A DNA stretch of 64,000 nucleotides from Gallionella capsiferriformans ES-2. Lineage in GTDB: Bacteria; Pseudomonadota; Gammaproteobacteria; Burkholderiales; Gallionellaceae. Below the pieces are notes generated by a model that saw only the letters and a program-made list of their open reading frames with translations, was not told where the DNA came from and made no database searches. Where the stretch lies: the NCBI RefSeq assembly GCF_000145255.1, contig NC_014394.1, positions 2,604,001 through 2,668,000 on the forward strand. The letters run 5' to 3'. The position numbers were made by a program, and so were the translations under genes. Positions 1 to 8,254 of the stretch are shown here, piece by piece (within the stretch, counting starts at the first letter, position 1; every line of letters begins with the position of its first letter).

Positions 1-1736
1 ATGTTATCGACTCCGAGTGGGCCCGACCTGACCGGACACAACACGATCCCAGCTCCAATGCCCCCCGCTTGCAGCCATAGTTCAGCTAGTTGATCCGGAT
101 CGTTTGATTCAACCAATGAGCAGTCAGCGCTGTCCACCAAGCGACTGACTGCAGCCGGAGGGAGTTTCACAAAACTGTTTCTCAGGTCGGTTGCAAAGCG
201 GTGAATTCCACTTTGTTCATCCTGCCGCATTACCTGCTTAAGCTCAAAGAACGGTACACTGGAGCTTTGCAACGCGTGGAAAACCAACCCCTTGCCAACT
301 GGCAGTATCTGCATGGAATCACCAACAAATATTATTCTTACTGCATATGGCAGTAAGCGAACCAGCCTATACATGCTGAGTAGGTCAAGCATCGACGACT
401 CGTCAACGATCAACAACAAATAATCAGGCAGCTCCGGCTTGCCTTCGCCCGTGTGTTCGGCAATAAGCTTGGCAATGGTCTGCGCAGGTTTCCCGGTACT
501 CTCGGCTATCCTCTGGGCAGCCCGACCAGCAACAGCAACCTGATACGAGGGAAGTTCCGATGCCAGCGACTCATAGCATCCTAGAACTGCCCGAAGGATG
601 GTTGTTTTTCCCGTGCCAGCACCACCGCTGATGCCACACACTGGCGCCAGCACTGCGCCAATGACGGCTTCCCGTTGCTCTGGCAGAAGCTGGAAGTCGA
701 GGAAGTGCGCTTCATATTGCTGCAGCGCTTCCTCAACTGTCCTGCGGTCAATTTGAGTTTCCCACCTCGCTTGACCAGCACCGCTCCCTGGCGATCTGAA
801 CAATGCCTTGACCAGAAAATCTGCCACTTCGTGTTCCATCAAGGCACAGCCGTAGCTTTGATAGACTGCCTTGCCACACTTAACCATAAGCTTCTGACCT
901 ACTGAAATGTCACCGAGATCCTTGGGCATTGAGCATTGGGTCAAGAGCTCTGCCCGACGATGTAATGTTGCCACATCAATAACCGTTGAACCGGTCTCCT
1001 CGGAATGCACAAAGGCTACATGTGCGGCAACACCCCCGATATATTCTGGATCGTCGATGGTGAAGCCCATTCTTGCGGCAATCACATCCACCTTTTTGAA
1101 GGAAACCCCAAGACCAAGCAGCATGAACGGATTGCCTTGGAGTAAAGGCAAGGCGTCCTCGCCCAAAGCTTTTAGGATCGACTTGCTGATACCAGCAGGA
1201 ATTCCGTGCTCGTCAAGAAACGCGATGACCCTGAACAATTCACTTGACGGCCAGTTTTCCAAGAGTGCATCTACTGTCGAATCAGACATTCCATGAATGG
1301 CCAGCAGTGATTCTCGATCCCTTTTCTCAACCCACTTTGCCAAGTGTTTGTTCCGGACGAGGCGATTGGATAGAATATCGCCGATTCCAGCGATGTTTTC
1401 TTTGAGCCAACGCGCCAAGGTTTGGCCCGTTGGCTTGACGAATGTCACTGTAGTGGCCGTGATGGTTCTTTCGTAGCGCCGGTCACCGTTGTGTACATAA
1501 CTGGTAATGAATTCCGGCCCATCCACAAGCCAAACAGTCCCTGGCGCAACAAGTTCTATGTCAGTATCAGGAAACCTTACGATCAGAGGATAGGGCGAAG
1601 GGGAAGAGCGAATAGAGCCGTTACGGTTGATGACCGAGACCGCCGCATAACGTCCGCCATTACGTACTCGCTTGCCTACCTGTACTGGAGTACCAACGTG
1701 GTAGACCCTTGCCTCGGATTTGGCAACATTGTTCAT
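1..1736 (-). CDS. RecD2-like SF1B DNA helicase of the mobile island (3' part beyond the window)
   Basis: Translating the minus strand from the ATG at 1734-1736 gives 578 uninterrupted residues running off the window edge. An N-terminal beta-rich region is followed by helix-hairpin-helix-like segments (about residues 105-165), as in RecD2. The helicase core follows: Walker A GGAGTGKTT near residue 371, Walker B LLLIVDESSM near 435, a motif like GDSMQILPVGKG and a later VMRQDEQS motif. RecD2 enzymes are 5'-3' ATP-dependent helicases. The start overlaps the stop of the upstream small gene by 4 bp (ATGA), so it belongs to the recombinase operon. Family membership is well supported. A role in island excision, replication or transfer is inference, and the C-terminal motifs are not visible. 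Confidence 0.85.
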   Translation of the reverse strand, partial: MNNVAKSEARVYHVGTPVQVGKRVRNGGRYAAVSVINRNGSIRSSPSPYPLIVRFPDTDIELVAPGTVWLVDGPEFITSYVHNGDRRYERTITATTVTFVKPTGQTLARWLKENIAGIGDILSNRLVRNKHLAKWVEKRDRESLLAIHGMSDSTVDALLENWPSSELFRVIAFLDEHGIPAGISKSILKALGEDALPLLQGNPFMLLGLGVSFKKVDVIAARMGFTIDDPEYIGGVAAHVAFVHSEETGSTVIDVATLHRRAELLTQCSMPKDLGDISVGQKLMVKCGKAVYQSYGCALMEHEVADFLVKALFRSPGSGAGQARWETQIDRRTVEEALQQYEAHFLDFQLLPEQREAVIGAVLAPVCGISGGAGTGKTTILRAVLGCYESLASELPSYQVAVAGRAAQRIAESTGKPAQTIAKLIAEHTGEGKPELPDYLLLIVDESSMLDLLSMYRLVRLLPYAVRIIFVGDSMQILPVGKGLVFHALQSSSVPFFELKQVMRQDEQSGIHRFATDLRNSFVKLPPAAVSRLVDSADCSLVESNDPDQLAELWLQAGGIGAGIVLCPVRSGPLGVDN

Positions 1737-2215
1737 TCAGGCAGTCCGAATCCAGGTAAACCTTTGGCAATTAGGTGCCTTTGCTCTTCGTAGGCGCGGA
1801 CTCTCTTCCTCAGCATACTGACTTCAGCCTCAAGCTCGCTTACCTTGCTCGCCAAGCGGTTGGCATCGACTGACGATTGCTGCACAACCTTCCGCGAACG
1901 GTCAAGTGCTGCGTTAACGCTTTCGACACTTTGCTTGTCCGGTCCGCCAAACCACTTCTTTTCAACCCGAGCAATAGCTTCCCTCAATGGCTCATTTTGG
2001 TGGAATGGGGTCTTGTTTTTCCATCCGATCCCTTCGATGGCGATCTTTTCTCGGCTTACCGTGCCAGCGAACTTGCCTTTCCATTGTTCCTTCGTACCGG
2101 CATGTTCAACCTCAGCGGCCCACGCTTCAAACTCTTCGAGCTTCTTTTTTCCAATCTGTGCGCAGCTCAAGCCATCATAGTTAAGGCTTTTATTATCTTG
2201 CTTTTTTCGAGCCAT
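1733..2215 (-). CDS. Small coiled-coil protein in the recombinase operon
   Basis: This 160-residue, highly charged protein has a basic N-terminus and a C-terminal heptad-like segment (about residues 118-148, SELEAEVSMLRKRVRAYEEQ) predicted to form a coiled coil. I do not recognise the family. It starts 3 bp after the stop of the preceding small gene, and its stop overlaps the helicase start, so it is probably translationally coupled to both. By analogy with TnpC of Tn554 it could be an accessory DNA-binding or recombinase-bridging factor. No catalytic motif is visible. Confidence 0.75.
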   Translation of the reverse strand: MARKKQDNKSLNYDGLSCAQIGKKKLEEFEAWAAEVEHAGTKEQWKGKFAGTVSREKIAIEGIGWKNKTPFHQNEPLREAIARVEKKWFGGPDKQSVESVNAALDRSRKVVQQSSVDANRLASKVSELEAEVSMLRKRVRAYEEQRHLIAKGLPGFGLPE

Positions 2216-2218
2216 CGA

Positions 2219-2644
2219 TCACCCTTTTTGGTTGCGCTTGTTCTTCGCCGTTAGTGGAAAATCCAGCTTTGAGATGTCGAAATTTGGCGCATGCATATAG
2301 ATAATGCTTAGCCAACGGACAAACTTTTCTTTGTACGCGTCGTTCTCAGCAGACAGGCGCCTAACCTGTTCGACGAGGTTATTTACCTGCGATTCGAACA
2401 TCGCGATCGTTTGATCGCTTGATGCCCTTGATGACTTTGCCTCACGCAGGAAGGCTTTGCGCTCGTTGAATGTTCGCTTGATAATCTCGTAACGCAACAA
2501 CGTCTGCTTGGTCACCACAGTTTTGAGCCCAAGTTTGCGGGTGATGCTCTCGCAGTAGAGCTCCCAAGTTAGTTCGCCTTGCCAATTGTTCAGTATAGCC
2601 AGCAACTGATTGATACTGTCCTCCGTGACAATCTTCTTAGGCAT
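2219..2644 (-). CDS. Small helix-turn-helix/coiled-coil accessory protein, GinD/TnpC-like
   Basis: This 141-residue protein has an N-terminal helical region compatible with a helix-turn-helix (about residues 10-55). A heptad-rich stretch follows at about 75-105 (VNNLVEQVRRLSAENDAY), then a basic C-terminus. Its start overlaps the end of the third recombinase by 8 bp (ATGCCTAA). Size, position directly after three tyrosine recombinases and predicted fold match GinD of GInt islands and, more loosely, the 125-residue TnpC of Tn554. In GInts the small fourth protein is required for recombination. Equivalence here is inferred from architecture, not from alignment. Confidence 0.7.
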   Translation of the reverse strand: MPKKIVTEDSINQLLAILNNWQGELTWELYCESITRKLGLKTVVTKQTLLRYEIIKRTFNERKAFLREAKSSRASSDQTIAMFESQVNNLVEQVRRLSAENDAYKEKFVRWLSIIYMHAPNFDISKLDFPLTAKNKRNQKG

Positions 2645-4760
2645 GACGAACCCATCCCAAGAATTTCTTCGTCATTGAGGACCGAACGGACTGTTGATCA
2701 GCATCGGACGCCTCTGGAACCACTGCTGATCTAGCGCGCTGGAGTGGGCTGGGATCCAACTCCGGGGGGACACAAACATGAGCCCCTTCCGGCGTGTCGA
2801 GATCCTTGAGTCGCGAGATGATGGCTCTGATTTTTCCAAGACGGAAACCTAGGAAGCGAAACCAACTGTCGGCGCCGAACGTTTTAACATCCAGTTGTAG
2901 CGCTGCACGCGATAGCTCCCTGGATAGTCCAGATTCCAGGGACTCAAGATTTTCGAGTTTGTCATCGAGACCCTTTATACACTTGTGGTCATCGCAGCTA
3001 GCGCAGGCTTCGCCTCCGCCCTTCAAACAAGGGGCCATCGCCCAGTCCCTTACGCAGAACCCATAGAGTGTAGGGTGTGCAACGCCGGGACGATCTATGC
3101 CCAAGGATTCATACGTCACTGGCAAATTCAATCGAACGGCTTCTAGGGAGGTAGGAGCCTGATTGTGCCTGATTACATCCTTAGCCGCTTTGTCCTTTTC
3201 CTCTTTTGTTAGAAATTTATAAGCTTTATTGTCATTCTTGTTCGCCCTGCCCGCCCATTGTGCGAGCAGCCACGCGCTCATACCGCCACGTTCTGCCCAG
3301 GTAGAAAGCCAGACCCTCGGCTGGTGGCTGGTCAGCATTATCGGAGTCTTGCCGTCTTCATCCACTTTATTGAAGCGATCAAAGATCGACTTTATGCGCA
3401 ATTTTTTGCCAGAATTTGACTGATAATCTCTACCGCCTAACTCGCAGTTCAATGCGTTAATGTTCGGGATCACCCAACTAAACTGTTTTGGTAGAAAGTC
3501 AGCATGAAACTGCATGTCCAGCACGAGCAACAAAGAATCCCAAACAGGTCGATTTGACCTAGGCATGTTCGGCCAACTGTGGGTGCAGTATTTATCATGG
3601 GTGAGCTCTGCCAGTCTCCGATAAGTCACCGGACCCGATGCACGCATATTCTCTAGCCACTTGATAGGGTTTGGGTTTATAACGCGCCAAGCGTCGTCAC
3701 CTTGAAGATCTTTTCCCTCTTGTTGCCTGATTTTGAGTTTTTCAATAGTGACGTCTGCATAGTTCATAGCGCAGGAAAACTGAAGGACATCCAGAGGCTC
3801 ATCCTCACCAAAATCGACTGGCGTGATGCAACGCGAGTGGCGCATGAACTTGCCAGGATTCTCGAAAGCGAACTTAGCCGCAATTCTGGCTGATTTGCCA
3901 ATCTTAATTAGACGTGCGAACGCGTCGCGGACCACAGGTTCCAGCTGAACGGGAACAATCTTTTTGGTCCATTCAGCCTTCTTTTTCGGAAACCAAAGCA
4001 CTTTCAACCTTCCGTCTTCTTCGATCAGGCTATCGACCATCAATGAACCGGGTTCGCTGCCTCGGCCTGGTGCAAACATCAGCAGTACGATGACCGATGA
4101 CCAATATTGGTCATATTCTTCCTCCGCCATCCGGAATATGTCCGCCAACGCGAGCATTTGATGAATGCTGGGGCAGCGTTCTTCCTGCCACGCTTTGTCC
4201 TCAGCAGTTGTGCCTTGAGCTCGGAAGCGCTGGCGCGGGTAGGGATTGGTCCAGATCGGCAACGACGGGCAAATAGCTTTCTCCCGCAAGAAATTGGCGA
4301 GCATTTCCAACTCGTTGCCGATGTGATAACGCCGTGCTTCAGAGTTACGTTGCCGAATCAATTCCGAGGTTTTTGAAATCACAACCCCGTCAACATCCAT
4401 AATGTCTTGGCTGCGCCCCAAGTCTCGTAGAGCATCGTAGACGGTCGCAAGTGCAGATGTCTTGTTACCGATTGACGTTACCTGCTGCTGTTCCTGATGG
4501 AACCTTACATACGCCTGGGCAAAACTTAGAAACGGCTCATGGAATGGAGTGTAATTGTATGGATCATTCTTCTTGGAATATTCCGCGAACCGCATCGCAT
4601 GTTTCCTGCCGTTGGCATCTGTGTATATCCATTGGTGAACAGCAAACCCGCCTTGATCTTCATAGAGCGCAAGTGTGTCCCGACAGTAAGTCACGAAATC
4701 GGCGAGATTCTTCTTGGGATCGTCCGCTGTAACAGGAATGAATGAGACAACTTTACTCAT
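2637..4760 (-). CDS. Tyrosine recombinase 3 of the island (GinC/TnpB-like)
   Basis: A 707-residue protein counted from the ATG at 4758-4760, whose ATGAGTAA overlaps the upstream stop; an in-frame GTG at 4772 lacks a well-spaced ribosome site. The tyrosine-recombinase catalytic domain is recognisable: Arg about 233 in APGRGSEPGSL, an H-x-x-R box in TSHQPRVWLS (about 479/482) and the nucleophile Tyr about 514 in NKNDNKAY. The usual third-box His is Arg in AGRANK. About 60 residues after the tyrosine lies a cysteine cluster (C569, C578, C586, C589, C594) that could bind zinc. The long N-terminal region would be the arm/core-binding part. It probably acts with the other two recombinases in island integration and excision. 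Confidence 0.85.
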   Translation of the reverse strand: MSKVVSFIPVTADDPKKNLADFVTYCRDTLALYEDQGGFAVHQWIYTDANGRKHAMRFAEYSKKNDPYNYTPFHEPFLSFAQAYVRFHQEQQQVTSIGNKTSALATVYDALRDLGRSQDIMDVDGVVISKTSELIRQRNSEARRYHIGNELEMLANFLREKAICPSLPIWTNPYPRQRFRAQGTTAEDKAWQEERCPSIHQMLALADIFRMAEEEYDQYWSSVIVLLMFAPGRGSEPGSLMVDSLIEEDGRLKVLWFPKKKAEWTKKIVPVQLEPVVRDAFARLIKIGKSARIAAKFAFENPGKFMRHSRCITPVDFGEDEPLDVLQFSCAMNYADVTIEKLKIRQQEGKDLQGDDAWRVINPNPIKWLENMRASGPVTYRRLAELTHDKYCTHSWPNMPRSNRPVWDSLLLVLDMQFHADFLPKQFSWVIPNINALNCELGGRDYQSNSGKKLRIKSIFDRFNKVDEDGKTPIMLTSHQPRVWLSTWAERGGMSAWLLAQWAGRANKNDNKAYKFLTKEEKDKAAKDVIRHNQAPTSLEAVRLNLPVTYESLGIDRPGVAHPTLYGFCVRDWAMAPCLKGGGEACASCDDHKCIKGLDDKLENLESLESGLSRELSRAALQLDVKTFGADSWFRFLGFRLGKIRAIISRLKDLDTPEGAHVCVPPELDPSPLQRARSAVVPEASDADQQSVRSSMTKKFLGWVRHA

Positions 4761-6315
4761 GACGGTACTCACCCTCGAACGTTTTGAATTCCGCCTTCCT
4801 AGTTGCGCACATTTGAATCACCTGCGTAATCGCAAGCAACACTCGGTCTGACGCACTGATGACCTTTTTAGATACGCCAGCATCCTCCTGATCACGCCTC
4901 TCCTTGTGCAATTCATCGAGTGCCTGTTGGTGAGGTCCATACAGCCATGGCTGAAATCTCTTGCATAGGTAGCAACTTTTCCAGCCATCCGCACAGAACT
5001 TATTGTTACCGCAATTTCCAACTGAAATATCAGTATTCAGCTTCACCCTGCTATGGGGATCATTGCCCCGAACCGCATCTCTTTCTGACTCTACCAATGT
5101 TCCTGCGAATGCCATGGCCAAAGGAGCCAAAACCGGGGCCATCACCTCATCAACCACCTTCGCGATTTCATTCTCTGATCGCGCGTATACACCAACCTGC
5201 TGCGTATCACTGTGATCAAGAGCCTCAGCGATAACCATCGGCCCGAATCCCTCTTCAGCCAAATTTGTCGCAAATGTTCTTCTCAAACGAGTACAACCAA
5301 TGATCAATCGATCACCCGTACGCTCGCTATGCGCAATCACAGTTGAATTGAGTTTGAACATAATATTGTTTATTGATCTCGAAGTTACATGCAGGAAATC
5401 TTTATCATGATAGGAAGAGATATCCGAGGACGAGCACAAAGCCAAGCGATTATAAGTTGGGAATAGTGGCAACGACGATTTTAATCCCTCATCGATATCT
5501 CCAAGAGTGCGATTAACCCAGGAGATAACGTCATTTCGTTGATCGTTCAGTGCATCAAAAAAGTCTTTACAGATCATTACACGCTTGAATTCCTTTCGAA
5601 AAGTCTTCCCTCCCTGCTGCTTAACCCTAGGTATGTCCAGATAATAGGAGCACGATTCCTTGTTGTCCGTAAAGCCAAGATCACCGAATCTTAAATAACG
5701 AATCTGAACTGGCCGCCTTCCAGTCATGCTGACTGCCAGCAGGAAACTGTAGTCGTGCTGTGATAGACGTTTTTCCTCATATGCATTCGCTAAGCCATAC
5801 AACAGCGACTGATGCTCCAACGAAGTATATGCGCCGGAATAAGGACAGTTCGTCAGTACGGCATACCCCTTAACGCAGCCTTTTATTCTCAACCCGTCTA
5901 AATATTCGATCTCTTTCCTAGTAATACCGGAAAATTGCCACTCATACCAACTCTCCAGAAAGCTTCTAAGTGCGCCCAACTCCCAAAGATGCTCGTCATC
6001 TAGCTTAGATCGAAAACTAGACAAGGCTTCCGCAGAAAAATCTTTTGACCCCGTGACCCTAAAGAATTTTTTGGCCCGATTGATAATGGAATCGCAGTAA
6101 CCGGAAGAAAGCTCTTGCGCAAAGCGGGATAGAGACTTTCTGAACCCCTCGGAAGTTCTTTCCTCAACCTCTAATTCTGATAGGAAACTGAGCTTTATGC
6201 TGATGGAGCCATCTAGCATCCATATGTTGCTATTTTCATCAAACTCGTAACCTGCCGACGATGTTTGTAGTAACAATGCGCTGCTTGACGCTGCATGTAG
6301 TTTAGTTTTCGTCAT
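4753..6315 (-). CDS. Tyrosine recombinase 2 of the island (GinB-like)
   Basis: A 520-residue protein from the ATG at 6313-6315, preferred over an upstream TTG; it overlaps the end of recombinase 1 by 14 bp. Catalytic positions are Arg about 201 in MTGRRPVQIRYL, box II CTRLRRTFAT with Arg about 345 but Thr where His is usual, His about 368 and Tyr about 377 in DHSDTQQVGVYAR. After the catalytic domain comes a cysteine-rich motif (C435, C441, C448, C451; FCADGWKSCYLC), a likely zinc knuckle also seen in a different form in recombinase 3. The function is strand exchange at the island ends. The non-canonical box II residue occurs in other tyrosine recombinases and does not by itself imply inactivity. 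Confidence 0.87.
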   Translation of the reverse strand: MTKTKLHAASSSALLLQTSSAGYEFDENSNIWMLDGSISIKLSFLSELEVEERTSEGFRKSLSRFAQELSSGYCDSIINRAKKFFRVTGSKDFSAEALSSFRSKLDDEHLWELGALRSFLESWYEWQFSGITRKEIEYLDGLRIKGCVKGYAVLTNCPYSGAYTSLEHQSLLYGLANAYEEKRLSQHDYSFLLAVSMTGRRPVQIRYLRFGDLGFTDNKESCSYYLDIPRVKQQGGKTFRKEFKRVMICKDFFDALNDQRNDVISWVNRTLGDIDEGLKSSLPLFPTYNRLALCSSSDISSYHDKDFLHVTSRSINNIMFKLNSTVIAHSERTGDRLIIGCTRLRRTFATNLAEEGFGPMVIAEALDHSDTQQVGVYARSENEIAKVVDEVMAPVLAPLAMAFAGTLVESERDAVRGNDPHSRVKLNTDISVGNCGNNKFCADGWKSCYLCKRFQPWLYGPHQQALDELHKERRDQEDAGVSKKVISASDRVLLAITQVIQMCATRKAEFKTFEGEYRHE

Positions 6316-7615
6316 CCCCAACCATCCCTTTCGCTTGTGCCAGAGCCTCTTTCAGTACTGAGGACTGCTTATCCTGGAACTGCCGCATCGCCTTCTTTGT
6401 CATAGCGCGTGTCGCGTTTCTCTCGTAGACCTCCCCAGACTTGTCACCATCGTGGCCGTTCATGTCCTTGCGAATATCGAGCCTCTGCTGGTCAGTGAGC
6501 AGTTTTACTTGAATCGAATAAAGATCCAACTGGTCAGTGAGTCGAACATTGAAGTTGTGACGAAACCCGTGGCGCCGTATATCCTTGAATCTGTCTGGAC
6601 GAACAACCACACCCCTCTTTAATTCATGCTGGAAGTTTTTGTCCGACATAGGAAAACCTTGGAATTCGTCATTTCTATGATTGACGAACAGGAATGGGCG
6701 TTTCCTGGCGTTAGGCGTGCCATACCGAACCGACGTGATGTATTCCTGAATTTTGTCGTAGAGCCCTTGGCTGATCGGAATATCCCTTTCCAGGGTCTTT
6801 ACCTGAGGCGGGTTCATGCGTGGATCATTTGGGTCATCCCGCCTATCGATGATTCGGATAATTGGATCACCTTGGTCGTCATATGTCGCGTCACCGACAT
6901 ACAGCGATAGCAGTTCTCCAGACCGCATCCCTGTCTCATAGAGCGTTTTGAACATCACAAAATTCCTGAGTCGAACTTCTCGCGACTTAAACGGGTTGTC
7001 TGGTGAATCTTCAGCAACGACCGACATGAACTCATCAAAGTATTGCGGAGATGGATGAATTGCTAGCCCAGAGCGACTTGTCTTACCTTTTGGCCGTTGC
7101 GCCAGTAGTGCCTCGCGCATTTCCTTGGCACGATTGTTGAGTTCTCCTGCGTTTGGGCGAACCCGCAACATCGTCACTGCACAGAAGTACAAGTACTTTG
7201 CAATCACGGTAATCCGGTTGTAGGCATGACTCTTTACGACACTCTGCAGAGAGGCCACCTGGATTGGCGCAACAATATCTATCGACTTGCCAGACAGGTA
7301 CGTTACCCTATTCATGTAGCGTTTTAGGTCAAGAGAGTCCCGATGACAGTGATCCCTAAGACTCATAATATCCCCTTCGGTAGGAAATCGCTGCTCGCCT
7401 AGCTCCTCCAGTAAGTTGCGCTTTTCCAGTTGCTCCCAAACACGAAGATGCGAAATTGCCGCCAACTCATTGCGAATTGTATTCGCGGTTTTACTTGCCC
7501 TTGATTCCGCAAACGTAAACAGGGTAGGCCAAAGGCTCATCAACCCATCCTGACCCTCCAAATATGGATAGCGTTCACCATCAGAAAATCGAGCAATATG
7601 CTGGGACAAAAGCAT
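6302..7615 (-). CDS. Tyrosine recombinase 1 of the island (GinA-like), first gene of the operon
   Basis: A 437-residue protein with the full catalytic set of the integrase family: Arg231 in YETGMRSGELLSL, His349-x-x-Arg352 in RRHGFRHNFNV, His388 and Tyr397 in GHDGDKSGEVYER. The N-terminal half (about 40-190) fits a SAM-like core-binding domain. It is the promoter-proximal gene of the six-gene operon and lies 156 bp from the ssb stop codon, so it marks the integrase end of the island. It is the most canonical of the three recombinases and a good candidate for the main cleaving enzyme. The promoter is presumably within 7616-7700; I see no strong consensus there. Confidence 0.9.
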   Translation of the reverse strand: MLLSQHIARFSDGERYPYLEGQDGLMSLWPTLFTFAESRASKTANTIRNELAAISHLRVWEQLEKRNLLEELGEQRFPTEGDIMSLRDHCHRDSLDLKRYMNRVTYLSGKSIDIVAPIQVASLQSVVKSHAYNRITVIAKYLYFCAVTMLRVRPNAGELNNRAKEMREALLAQRPKGKTSRSGLAIHPSPQYFDEFMSVVAEDSPDNPFKSREVRLRNFVMFKTLYETGMRSGELLSLYVGDATYDDQGDPIIRIIDRRDDPNDPRMNPPQVKTLERDIPISQGLYDKIQEYITSVRYGTPNARKRPFLFVNHRNDEFQGFPMSDKNFQHELKRGVVVRPDRFKDIRRHGFRHNFNVRLTDQLDLYSIQVKLLTDQQRLDIRKDMNGHDGDKSGEVYERNATRAMTKKAMRQFQDKQSSVLKEALAQAKGMVGDDEN

Positions 7616-7735
7616 GTCTTAACTTTACCTTTTTTAACTTCCACCACACAAAAATAGGTTTAATTCTAATTTAAACAAAAAATTTGCGCAATAAAAAATA
7701 ACGCCCTGTAAATACAGGGCGTTATAAGTTAAGAC
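7616..7735. other. Island-chromosome junction region with inverted and direct repeats (candidate attachment region)
   Basis: Between recombinase 1 and ssb there is a perfect 10-bp inverted repeat: GTCTTAACTT at 7616-7625 and AAGTTAAGAC at 7726-7735. A 10-bp direct repeat TTTAACTTCC lies at 7633-7642 and again at 7760-7769, beside the ssb stop. The ssb terminator hairpin lies between them. Such repeats are what recombinase binding sites of tyrosine integrases look like, but the exact boundary cannot be fixed without the other island end or an empty site. Confidence 0.4.
7690..7722 (-). terminator. Rho-independent terminator of ssb
   Basis: A perfect 9-bp stem ACGCCCTGT/ACAGGGCGT with a 4-nt loop (7701-7722) lies 50 bp after the ssb stop. 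On the minus strand it is followed by a T-rich run (complement of 7690-7700). It probably belongs to the chromosomal backbone, which would place the island boundary between it and position 7615. Confidence 0.75.
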
Positions 7736-7771
7736 TGATTCTTATTTTTACATTTTACATTTAACTTCCGC

Positions 7772-8254
7772 CTAAAAAGGAATATCGTCGTCGAAGTTAT
7801 CAAAATTGCGTGCCTGACTTGCAGCGGGCGCAGGTGCTGATCTCGGTGCCGATGGCGCTTGAGAACGCGCAGGCTGAGACTGCTGGGACGGCTGATCGTC
7901 CATCACTTCAAAGCTGCCACCGGTTGATTTTCCGCCCAGCATGGTCATCTCGTTCACCAGAATTTCCGTGGTGTAACGATCTTTGCCTTCCTTGTCCTGC
8001 CACTTGCGCGTCTGCAGCTTACCTTCGACATAGATCATCGAGCCTTTTTTCAGGTATTCACCAGCGACTTCCGCCAGACGACGATAGAAGGTCAGGTTAT
8101 GCCATTCGGTTTTTTCCTGCTTGACGCCGCTCTTGTCCTTCCAGTTTTCAGAAGTTGCCAGCGTCGCATTGGTGACCGCTTCCCCGTTAGGCATATAGCG
8201 CGTTTCCGGGTCTTTGCCTAAACGGCCGATCAAAATCACTTTATTTACCGACAT
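7772..8254 (-). CDS. ssb: Single-stranded DNA-binding protein
   Basis: A 160-residue protein with the SSB OB-fold at residues 1-110, beginning [20 protein letters not shown] and containing [17 protein letters not shown] Gln/Pro/Ala/Ser-rich linker and the conserved acidic tip FDDDIPF, which recruits SSB partner proteins, complete it. It coats ssDNA during replication, repair and recombination. The mobile island lies directly downstream, leaving the reading frame and terminator hairpin intact. Length and all motifs are normal. Confidence 0.97.

Follow-up and report, generated by a model that had tools for sequence, protein, structure and literature searches.

An Island at the End of ssb

GInts (Genomic Islands with three Integrases) are islands whose recombination genes form an operon, ginABCD, and the accessible text of the paper describing them (Bardaji et al., 2017, PMC5385486) reports the end of ssb as an insertion site and GinD as an essential recombination factor. 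Here we analyzed a window (the whole stretch of 64,000 nucleotides, positions 2,604,001 to 2,668,000 of contig NC_014394.1) of Gallionella capsiferriformans ES-2 in which six minus-strand genes follow ssb. We read this operon, with a probability of about 0.8, as the integrase end of a GInt-type island in ssb that consists of two stacked elements and carries a gene pair, here called E and H, shared with GMT (gamma-mobile-trio) elements.

The operon starts 156 bp past the stop codon of ssb (positions 7772–8254, minus strand; Pfam SSB, 3.3e-40), the target gene, whose frame is intact and whose product ends in DDDIPF. Three tyrosine recombinases come first: the GinA-like Int1 (6302–7615, minus strand like the whole operon; 437 aa; Pfam PF00589, 1.5e-11), the GinB-like Int2 (4753–6315; 520 aa; NF041502, 547 bits) and the GinC-like Int3 (2637–4760; 707 aa, or 711 from a GTG at 4772). 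They are followed by D, a GinD-like small protein of 141 aa (2219–2644) whose family stands at the same place in 92/105 surveyed operons, by E, a VPA1267-family protein of 160 aa (1733–2215) recognized by profile-profile comparison and by a weak NF040697 match under the cut-off, and by H, a RecD2-like SF1B helicase of 762 aa (Pfam AAA_19, 1.6e-34; HHH_RecD2, 3.1e-15), which fills positions 1–1736 and extends beyond the window edge to end 552 bp outside it, at genome position 2603448. All six genes are open, with catalytic and helicase motifs kept: R231, H349, R352, and Y397 are the conserved residues of Int1 by alignment; R202, K233, R346, H369, Y378, and C436/C442/C449/C452 of Int2 are conserved in 6/6 proteins; and the helicase motifs of H are invariant in 17/17 operons. 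Int2 and Int3 share a conserved Cys cluster C-terminal of the catalytic Tyr, which is possibly zinc-binding. The same genome has four more tyrosine-recombinase matches inside 13 kb (G000:C1:1637779-1650419).

The initial annotation of this stretch had proposed six tightly packed genes, with overlaps that hold if ATG starts are taken, among them three tyrosine recombinases and a small protein in the ginABCD layout, which gene order and the Pfam and NF041502 matches bear out. It took the operon for the integrase end of a GInt with cargo leftward of position 1, and we find the recombinase trio and helper in the order A-B-C-D, insertion at the end of ssb without an altered product, imperfect short direct repeats at both ends, further genes beyond H and thus cargo behind ginD, and an AT-rich 3′ end. 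It did not recognize genes five and six as a VPA1267-like/RecD2-like pair of the kind found in GMT operons, and a single island was only part of the picture, a second, decayed gin operon lying behind the first. The assignment to GInts is drawn from gene order, site, and NF041502. An operon of unrelated integrases is ruled out by the constant gene order and homology across operons, and the possibility of a fixed piece of chromosome fares no better: a different GInt occupies two of the 29 ssb loci examined in relatives, and the remaining 27 lack Int1 over the 0.6–1.6 kb available behind ssb.

Target Site and Island Ends

The survey behind these counts comprises 105 operons: 20 loci found via NF041502 or Int3, 80 via an Int2 alignment (the best 80 of 144 loci, several rows near-identical), two plasmid loci, and the stack described here. 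Among the operons in which over 700 bp precede Int1, ssb stands directly upstream and co-directional in 71/87, made up of 62/65 Int2-fetched operons, 6/19 found via NF041502 or Int3, our own, L188, and L189; the figure of 62/65 describes the ssb-type clade, whose Int2 alignment served to collect these loci, and two of the three exceptions (L176, L180) stand second in a tandem array. The SSB C-terminus is IPF or VPF in 75/75 cases, and the element therefore restores the SSB tail. Few bacterial protein ends are as conserved as this tail, and one site is common to very divergent elements because the cut core encodes it. Other GInt operons with E and H lie directly behind ribonucleotide reductase (L098, L099) or an HhH-GPD repair gene (L100), and GInt sites thus cluster in DNA-metabolism genes.

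The attL and attR cores lie 27.6 kb apart. The attL core CCTTTTTAG (7772–7780, minus strand) comprises the ssb codons for Pro-Phe-stop, and the same core emerges by comparison in Escherichia coli and Tepidimonas. Its partner at attR, CCGTTTTAA, is located at genome positions 2584182–2584190, beyond the window edge, and matches at 8/9 positions, up to the last base. A search of the far end with the full att pattern gave a single match, TTGCCGTTTTAAAAAATACC at 2584193, which rules out an attR inside the insertion-sequence region; used by itself, the shorter core has chance matches too (eight matches listed). Across elements the consensus core is CCNTTYTAG, Pro-Phe-stop, as follows from the E. 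coli and Tepidimonas comparisons below, and by this alignment the element inserts in the last codons of ssb. The attI junction of a circular form is predicted to read ...TAATTG-CC[G/T]TTTTA-GGCGGAAG....

The flank beyond attR aligns at 39/50 positions with the terminator that immediately follows ssb in the relative G029, its local score of 45 exceeding those of all 200 shuffles (at most 27); when this flank was scored against 28 relatives, those at L027 (G029) and L031 stood out and most others did not. The original ssb terminator is thus likely to be found past the far repeat. The element's own side of attL bears a perfect hairpin, ATAACGCCCTG...CAGGGCGTTAT, followed by a T-run (7698–7725, minus strand), which was recognized through self-complementary matches and is terminator-like. 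A terminator scan of the ssb-Int1 gap was positive in 67/67 cases and is not counted as evidence, because its criterion is so loose that 36 positives are expected in shuffles. This gap (7615–7772) contains two copies of GGAAGTTAAA and, as an inverted pair, TCTTAACTT and AAGTTAAGA, all of them candidates for arm-type or operator sites. AT content reaches 69% in the 200 bp just inside attR vs. 51% over the stack, and the GC content of the stack is 48.6% compared with 53.8% in the rest of the window.

Two Stacked Elements in a Variable Region

Beyond H lie two proteins (226 and 264 aa) without a Pfam match and, further leftward, a transposase gene cluster that by eye is an IS21-like element with an IS66-like element inside. 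It is followed by a second gin-type operon, with a 282-aa C-terminal piece of Int2 ahead of full-length genes for Int3, D, E, and H, and behind it by genes for SRAP, UmuD-like, UmuC-like, and two uncharacterized proteins. PADLOC and Pfam searches gave no match for any of the four uncharacterized cargo proteins in the stack. Inner and outer copies share 45% identity in Int3 and 49% in H. Two divergent elements are thus stacked at one site, and the inner one lacks Int1 and the start of Int2, lost to insertion sequences. A core search did not find the junction between the two elements, which was probably lost with the deletion.

The region behind ssb is a variable hotspot that extends past the GInt stack. 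Backbone resumes 2.1 kb after ssb in G029 and the same backbone lies 54.6 kb away in the genome of the window, while in two other relatives ssb is 9.3 and 12.4 kb from a neighbouring backbone block; the site thus varies, and we assign no more than 27.6 kb of the interval to the stack. The ~22 kb left of the island (genome 2562098–2584182), between ssb and backbone, hold arsenic-resistance, cytochrome bd, and hydrogenase-like genes (by eye), and a search of 2562–2584 kb for a third, lost GInt found no second good core. The same-genus relative G028 and Gallionella sp. L187 are alike in how they start behind ssb. In the relatives L042, L038, and L053 the first 60 bases behind ssb resemble a GInt left end (TACCT...GTAAA, then a hairpin) with no gin operon after it, possible scars of lost GInts.

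A Gene Pair Shared With GMT Elements

E and H stand behind D in 18/105 operons and overlap by 4 bp in 14 of these, the overlap in the remaining four depending in part on which start is chosen; D is unrecognized in L097 and L098, where ~0.4 kb remains to accommodate it. Mapped on a quick tree of 99 operons, which has long branches, the presence of the pair requires 11 changes, at least eight of them forced by well supported branches, compared with a mean of 16.8 for shuffled labels (0/500 as low as 11), and E and H are therefore clustered yet have been gained or lost many times. Across 17 operons, distances correlate at 0.90 between Int2 and Int3 and at 0.75 between E and H. The pairs of L100 and L122 share 67% identity in H and 59% in E, yet Int2 and Int3 of L100 are at most 23% identical to those of any other operon with the pair, which indicates that the pair was swapped at least once.

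The pair also reaches beyond GInts. In profile-profile comparison E matches VPA1267 proteins from GMT operons at 100% (140 columns), H matches both GMT ATPases, and E is in addition distantly homologous to D (96%, 66 columns). A search of plasmids with H gave 130 records at E-values up to 1e-40, and two of the four neighbourhoods opened were GMT operons with the order gmtY – integrase – gmtX – VPA1267 – AAA ATPase. The VPA1267 model applied to Gammaproteobacteria, which is too insensitive for this purpose, hit 3/274 genomes at E-values up to 0.001 and none above its cut-off. Judged by these sequence relationships, E-H is a transferable module common to GInt and GMT elements. In Paraburkholderia elongata (L176) a second operon begins 0.2 kb behind H, with the core CCTTTTTAA in the junction (by eye), so that the first element has no room for cargo and seemingly consists of ginABCD-E-H only; since this element is apparently operon alone, E-H is probably mobility machinery. 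We found no paper on a helicase or VPA1267 protein in GInts, many subscription papers being out of reach.

The Third Recombinase

GinC is said to lack the first Arg in the accessible text of PMC5385486, and to lack the catalytic motif and tyrosine in that of PMC10214605. The Int3 proteins surveyed here, in contrast, keep all catalytic residues save the second His, which is Arg. In an alignment of 100 proteins, near-copies included, R237 and K264 are conserved in 99/99 non-gap rows, R486, R509, and Y518 in 98/98, and H483 in 95/98; this statement covers the surveyed copies only. Fold and profile comparison groups Int3 with XerH, XerC, and the Tn1549 integrase, the structure ranking by VIA being a re-ordering of Foldseek matches. 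Int3 may therefore be catalytic.

Copies in Chromosomes and Plasmids

The same 11.9-kb GInt is present in the chromosomal ssb of E. coli and in the ssb of an F-like and a P1-like E. coli plasmid. The ESY002 chromosome (L210) and plasmid p20-20P1 (L211) share 11,931 bp of homology with four mismatches, all in ssb, and are identical over the 11,892 bp from the ssb stop to the attR core; attL has the host core (Phe TTC or TTT) and attR the element core. In plasmid pETN48, behind its own ssb near psiB, this element is present as two blocks of at least 99.9% identity on either side of an insertion sequence. Int1 of this element was matched in 378/5426 E. coli genomes, at 379 chromosomal and 28 plasmid places, with the ssb context checked in one place of each kind, and in a plasmid collection Int1 lies behind ssb in 35 of the 37 listed Int1 records (by feature list or matched stretch). 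A search of a phage collection with Int2 gave no match. The occurrence of one GInt in chromosomal and plasmid ssb genes points to a plausible transfer route. We found no paper on GInts in plasmid ssb genes, although many subscription papers were out of reach.

The E. coli GInt (L210, L211, L215) carries avs4 and an AbiGi-family gene, and its chromosomal place is the yjcB-ssb locus, a known defence-island hotspot of E. coli according to the accessible part of PMC11728103. In Tepidimonas two copies 21,741 bp apart are identical over the 12,000 bp compared, from CCGTTCTAG on; such tandem copies fit replicative movement and, equally, ordinary duplication.

Alternative Readings and Proposed Mechanism

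Several observations weigh against a GInt-type island with a shared mobility module. Int distances correlate with those of H at only 0.50 and 0.56 over the 17 operons, two of the four opened plasmid neighbourhoods of H lack a recombinase trio, and E and H are missing from 87/105 gin operons and from 4/4 complete GMT loci found otherwise than via the helicase (a fifth being cut by a contig end), so that the pair is dispensable for most relatives. The placement of attR depends on a 9-bp core and the flank match, a circle was seen in no own-genome sample, and no excision or transfer was seen. The rarity of the pair would suit ordinary cargo or a defence pair standing first behind ginD by chance, as would the frequency of defence genes in that position (type I restriction-modification and others in 4/4 selected loci without the pair; avs4 in E. 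coli) and the match of the inner-copy H to PADLOC RecD-type models (169.6 bits, typeIV_RecD). We nevertheless consider this doubtful, given that the same pair recurs at the same place with the same 4-bp coupling in 14/18 operons, closes two GMT operons, belongs to a first L176 element that is seemingly operon alone, and includes in E a remote homologue of D, the counterpart of a factor essential to GInt recombination in the accessible text of PMC5385486.

The locus might also be a dead relic, a decaying operon fixed in its lineage and immobile: insertion sequences have broken the inner copy, and an order-wide search with Int3 gave any match in 2/300 genomes and full-length matches only in the window's own genome. 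The open genes and intact motifs of the outer copy and the absence of the operon from the relatives' ssb loci examined make this unlikely. Far less probable still is a different recombinase-trio element of the RIT, Tn554, or SE (strand-biased circularizing integrative element) type. These share the logic of several recombinases per operon with a small coiled-coil helper, and the 6-bp-like asymmetry of the ends resembles that of SEs in the accessible text of PMC10214605; but gene order, gene sizes, and sites at the 3′ ends of ssb and nrd fit GInts as PMC5385486 describes them in its accessible text, SE, RIT, and Tn554 being set apart by description and not by sequence.

Taking the island as a GInt, its movement may be pictured as follows. 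It would integrate site-specifically at the last codons of ssb, restoring the SSB tail and bringing in its own terminator-like hairpin, with strand exchange at the ssb tip carried out by the three tyrosine recombinases and a GinD-like helper. An SE-like replicative copy-out would then produce single-stranded DNA, and H, a 5′-3′ helicase loaded by E as an adaptor, would unwind or clear that strand; travel would occur on plasmids and phage-plasmids via their ssb genes, and the island may still be active. A leading-region ssb of a plasmid is expressed early on single-strand arrival. This invites a broader and speculative scheme, which on balance we think improbable as a whole: GInts behind the ssb of chromosomes, F-like plasmids, and phage-plasmids would be read from the ssb promoter and copied out via a single strand, an incoming plasmid strand would switch on the gin genes and let the island copy into a new chromosomal ssb, E-H would be a portable single-strand processing unit acquired by unrelated recombinase-trio elements, and the third recombinase would be a working enzyme.

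To our knowledge, GInts are described as lacking a mobilization system of their own. That a single element is found in ssb genes of both chromosomes and plasmids suggests how GInts spread together with defence genes like avs4, and a helicase module common to GInt and GMT, together with full catalytic residues in an “inactive” third recombinase, makes the movement of multi-recombinase elements directly testable.

Comparison With Known Systems

SEs, as far as the accessible text of PMC10214605 describes them, resemble the island in their multi-recombinase operon with a coiled-coil helper and in having the host core in attL and the element core in attR, the same asymmetry as in the E. coli GInt. 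They are set apart here by description, the clustering in that text placing them in other protein families, and their “srap” is a recombination helper vs. the SRAP peptidase of the inner copy.

GMT elements, whose gene set (gmtY, VPA1269-family/gmtZ, gmtX, VPA1267, AAA ATPase) is known here from the annotation of two loci, are alike in that E and H are homologous to the VPA1267 protein and AAA ATPase behind gmtX of L200 and L201, which makes the accessory genes of GMT operons present in the window, and in that Int1 is distantly homologous to GmtY (98.9% in profile-profile comparison). They have two recombinase-like genes vs. three in the window operon; GmtZ matches Int2 over only 87 columns and does not match Int3, and the similarity of GmtX to D is not significant (55%). 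By NCBI cut-offs the window operon falls outside GMT, Int1 scoring 35.9 bits vs. 340 for GmtY and GmtX and GmtZ being unmatched in profile search.

Closest are the GInts (Bardaji et al., 2017, PMC5385486), which in the accessible text share the operon of three tyrosine recombinases and a helper at one end with cargo behind it, the AT-rich far end, the imperfect short direct repeats, and insertion at the end of ssb; published repeats measure 10–17 nt, and the repeat here sits at the short end of that range. Excision as a circle, for which all four gin genes are required, is a further trait of GInts. The window element differs in its two extra conserved operon genes, E and H, and in being a stack of two. 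To the known GInts this locus and its relatives add a portable E-H pair, a third recombinase with catalytic residues, and copies in plasmid ssb genes.

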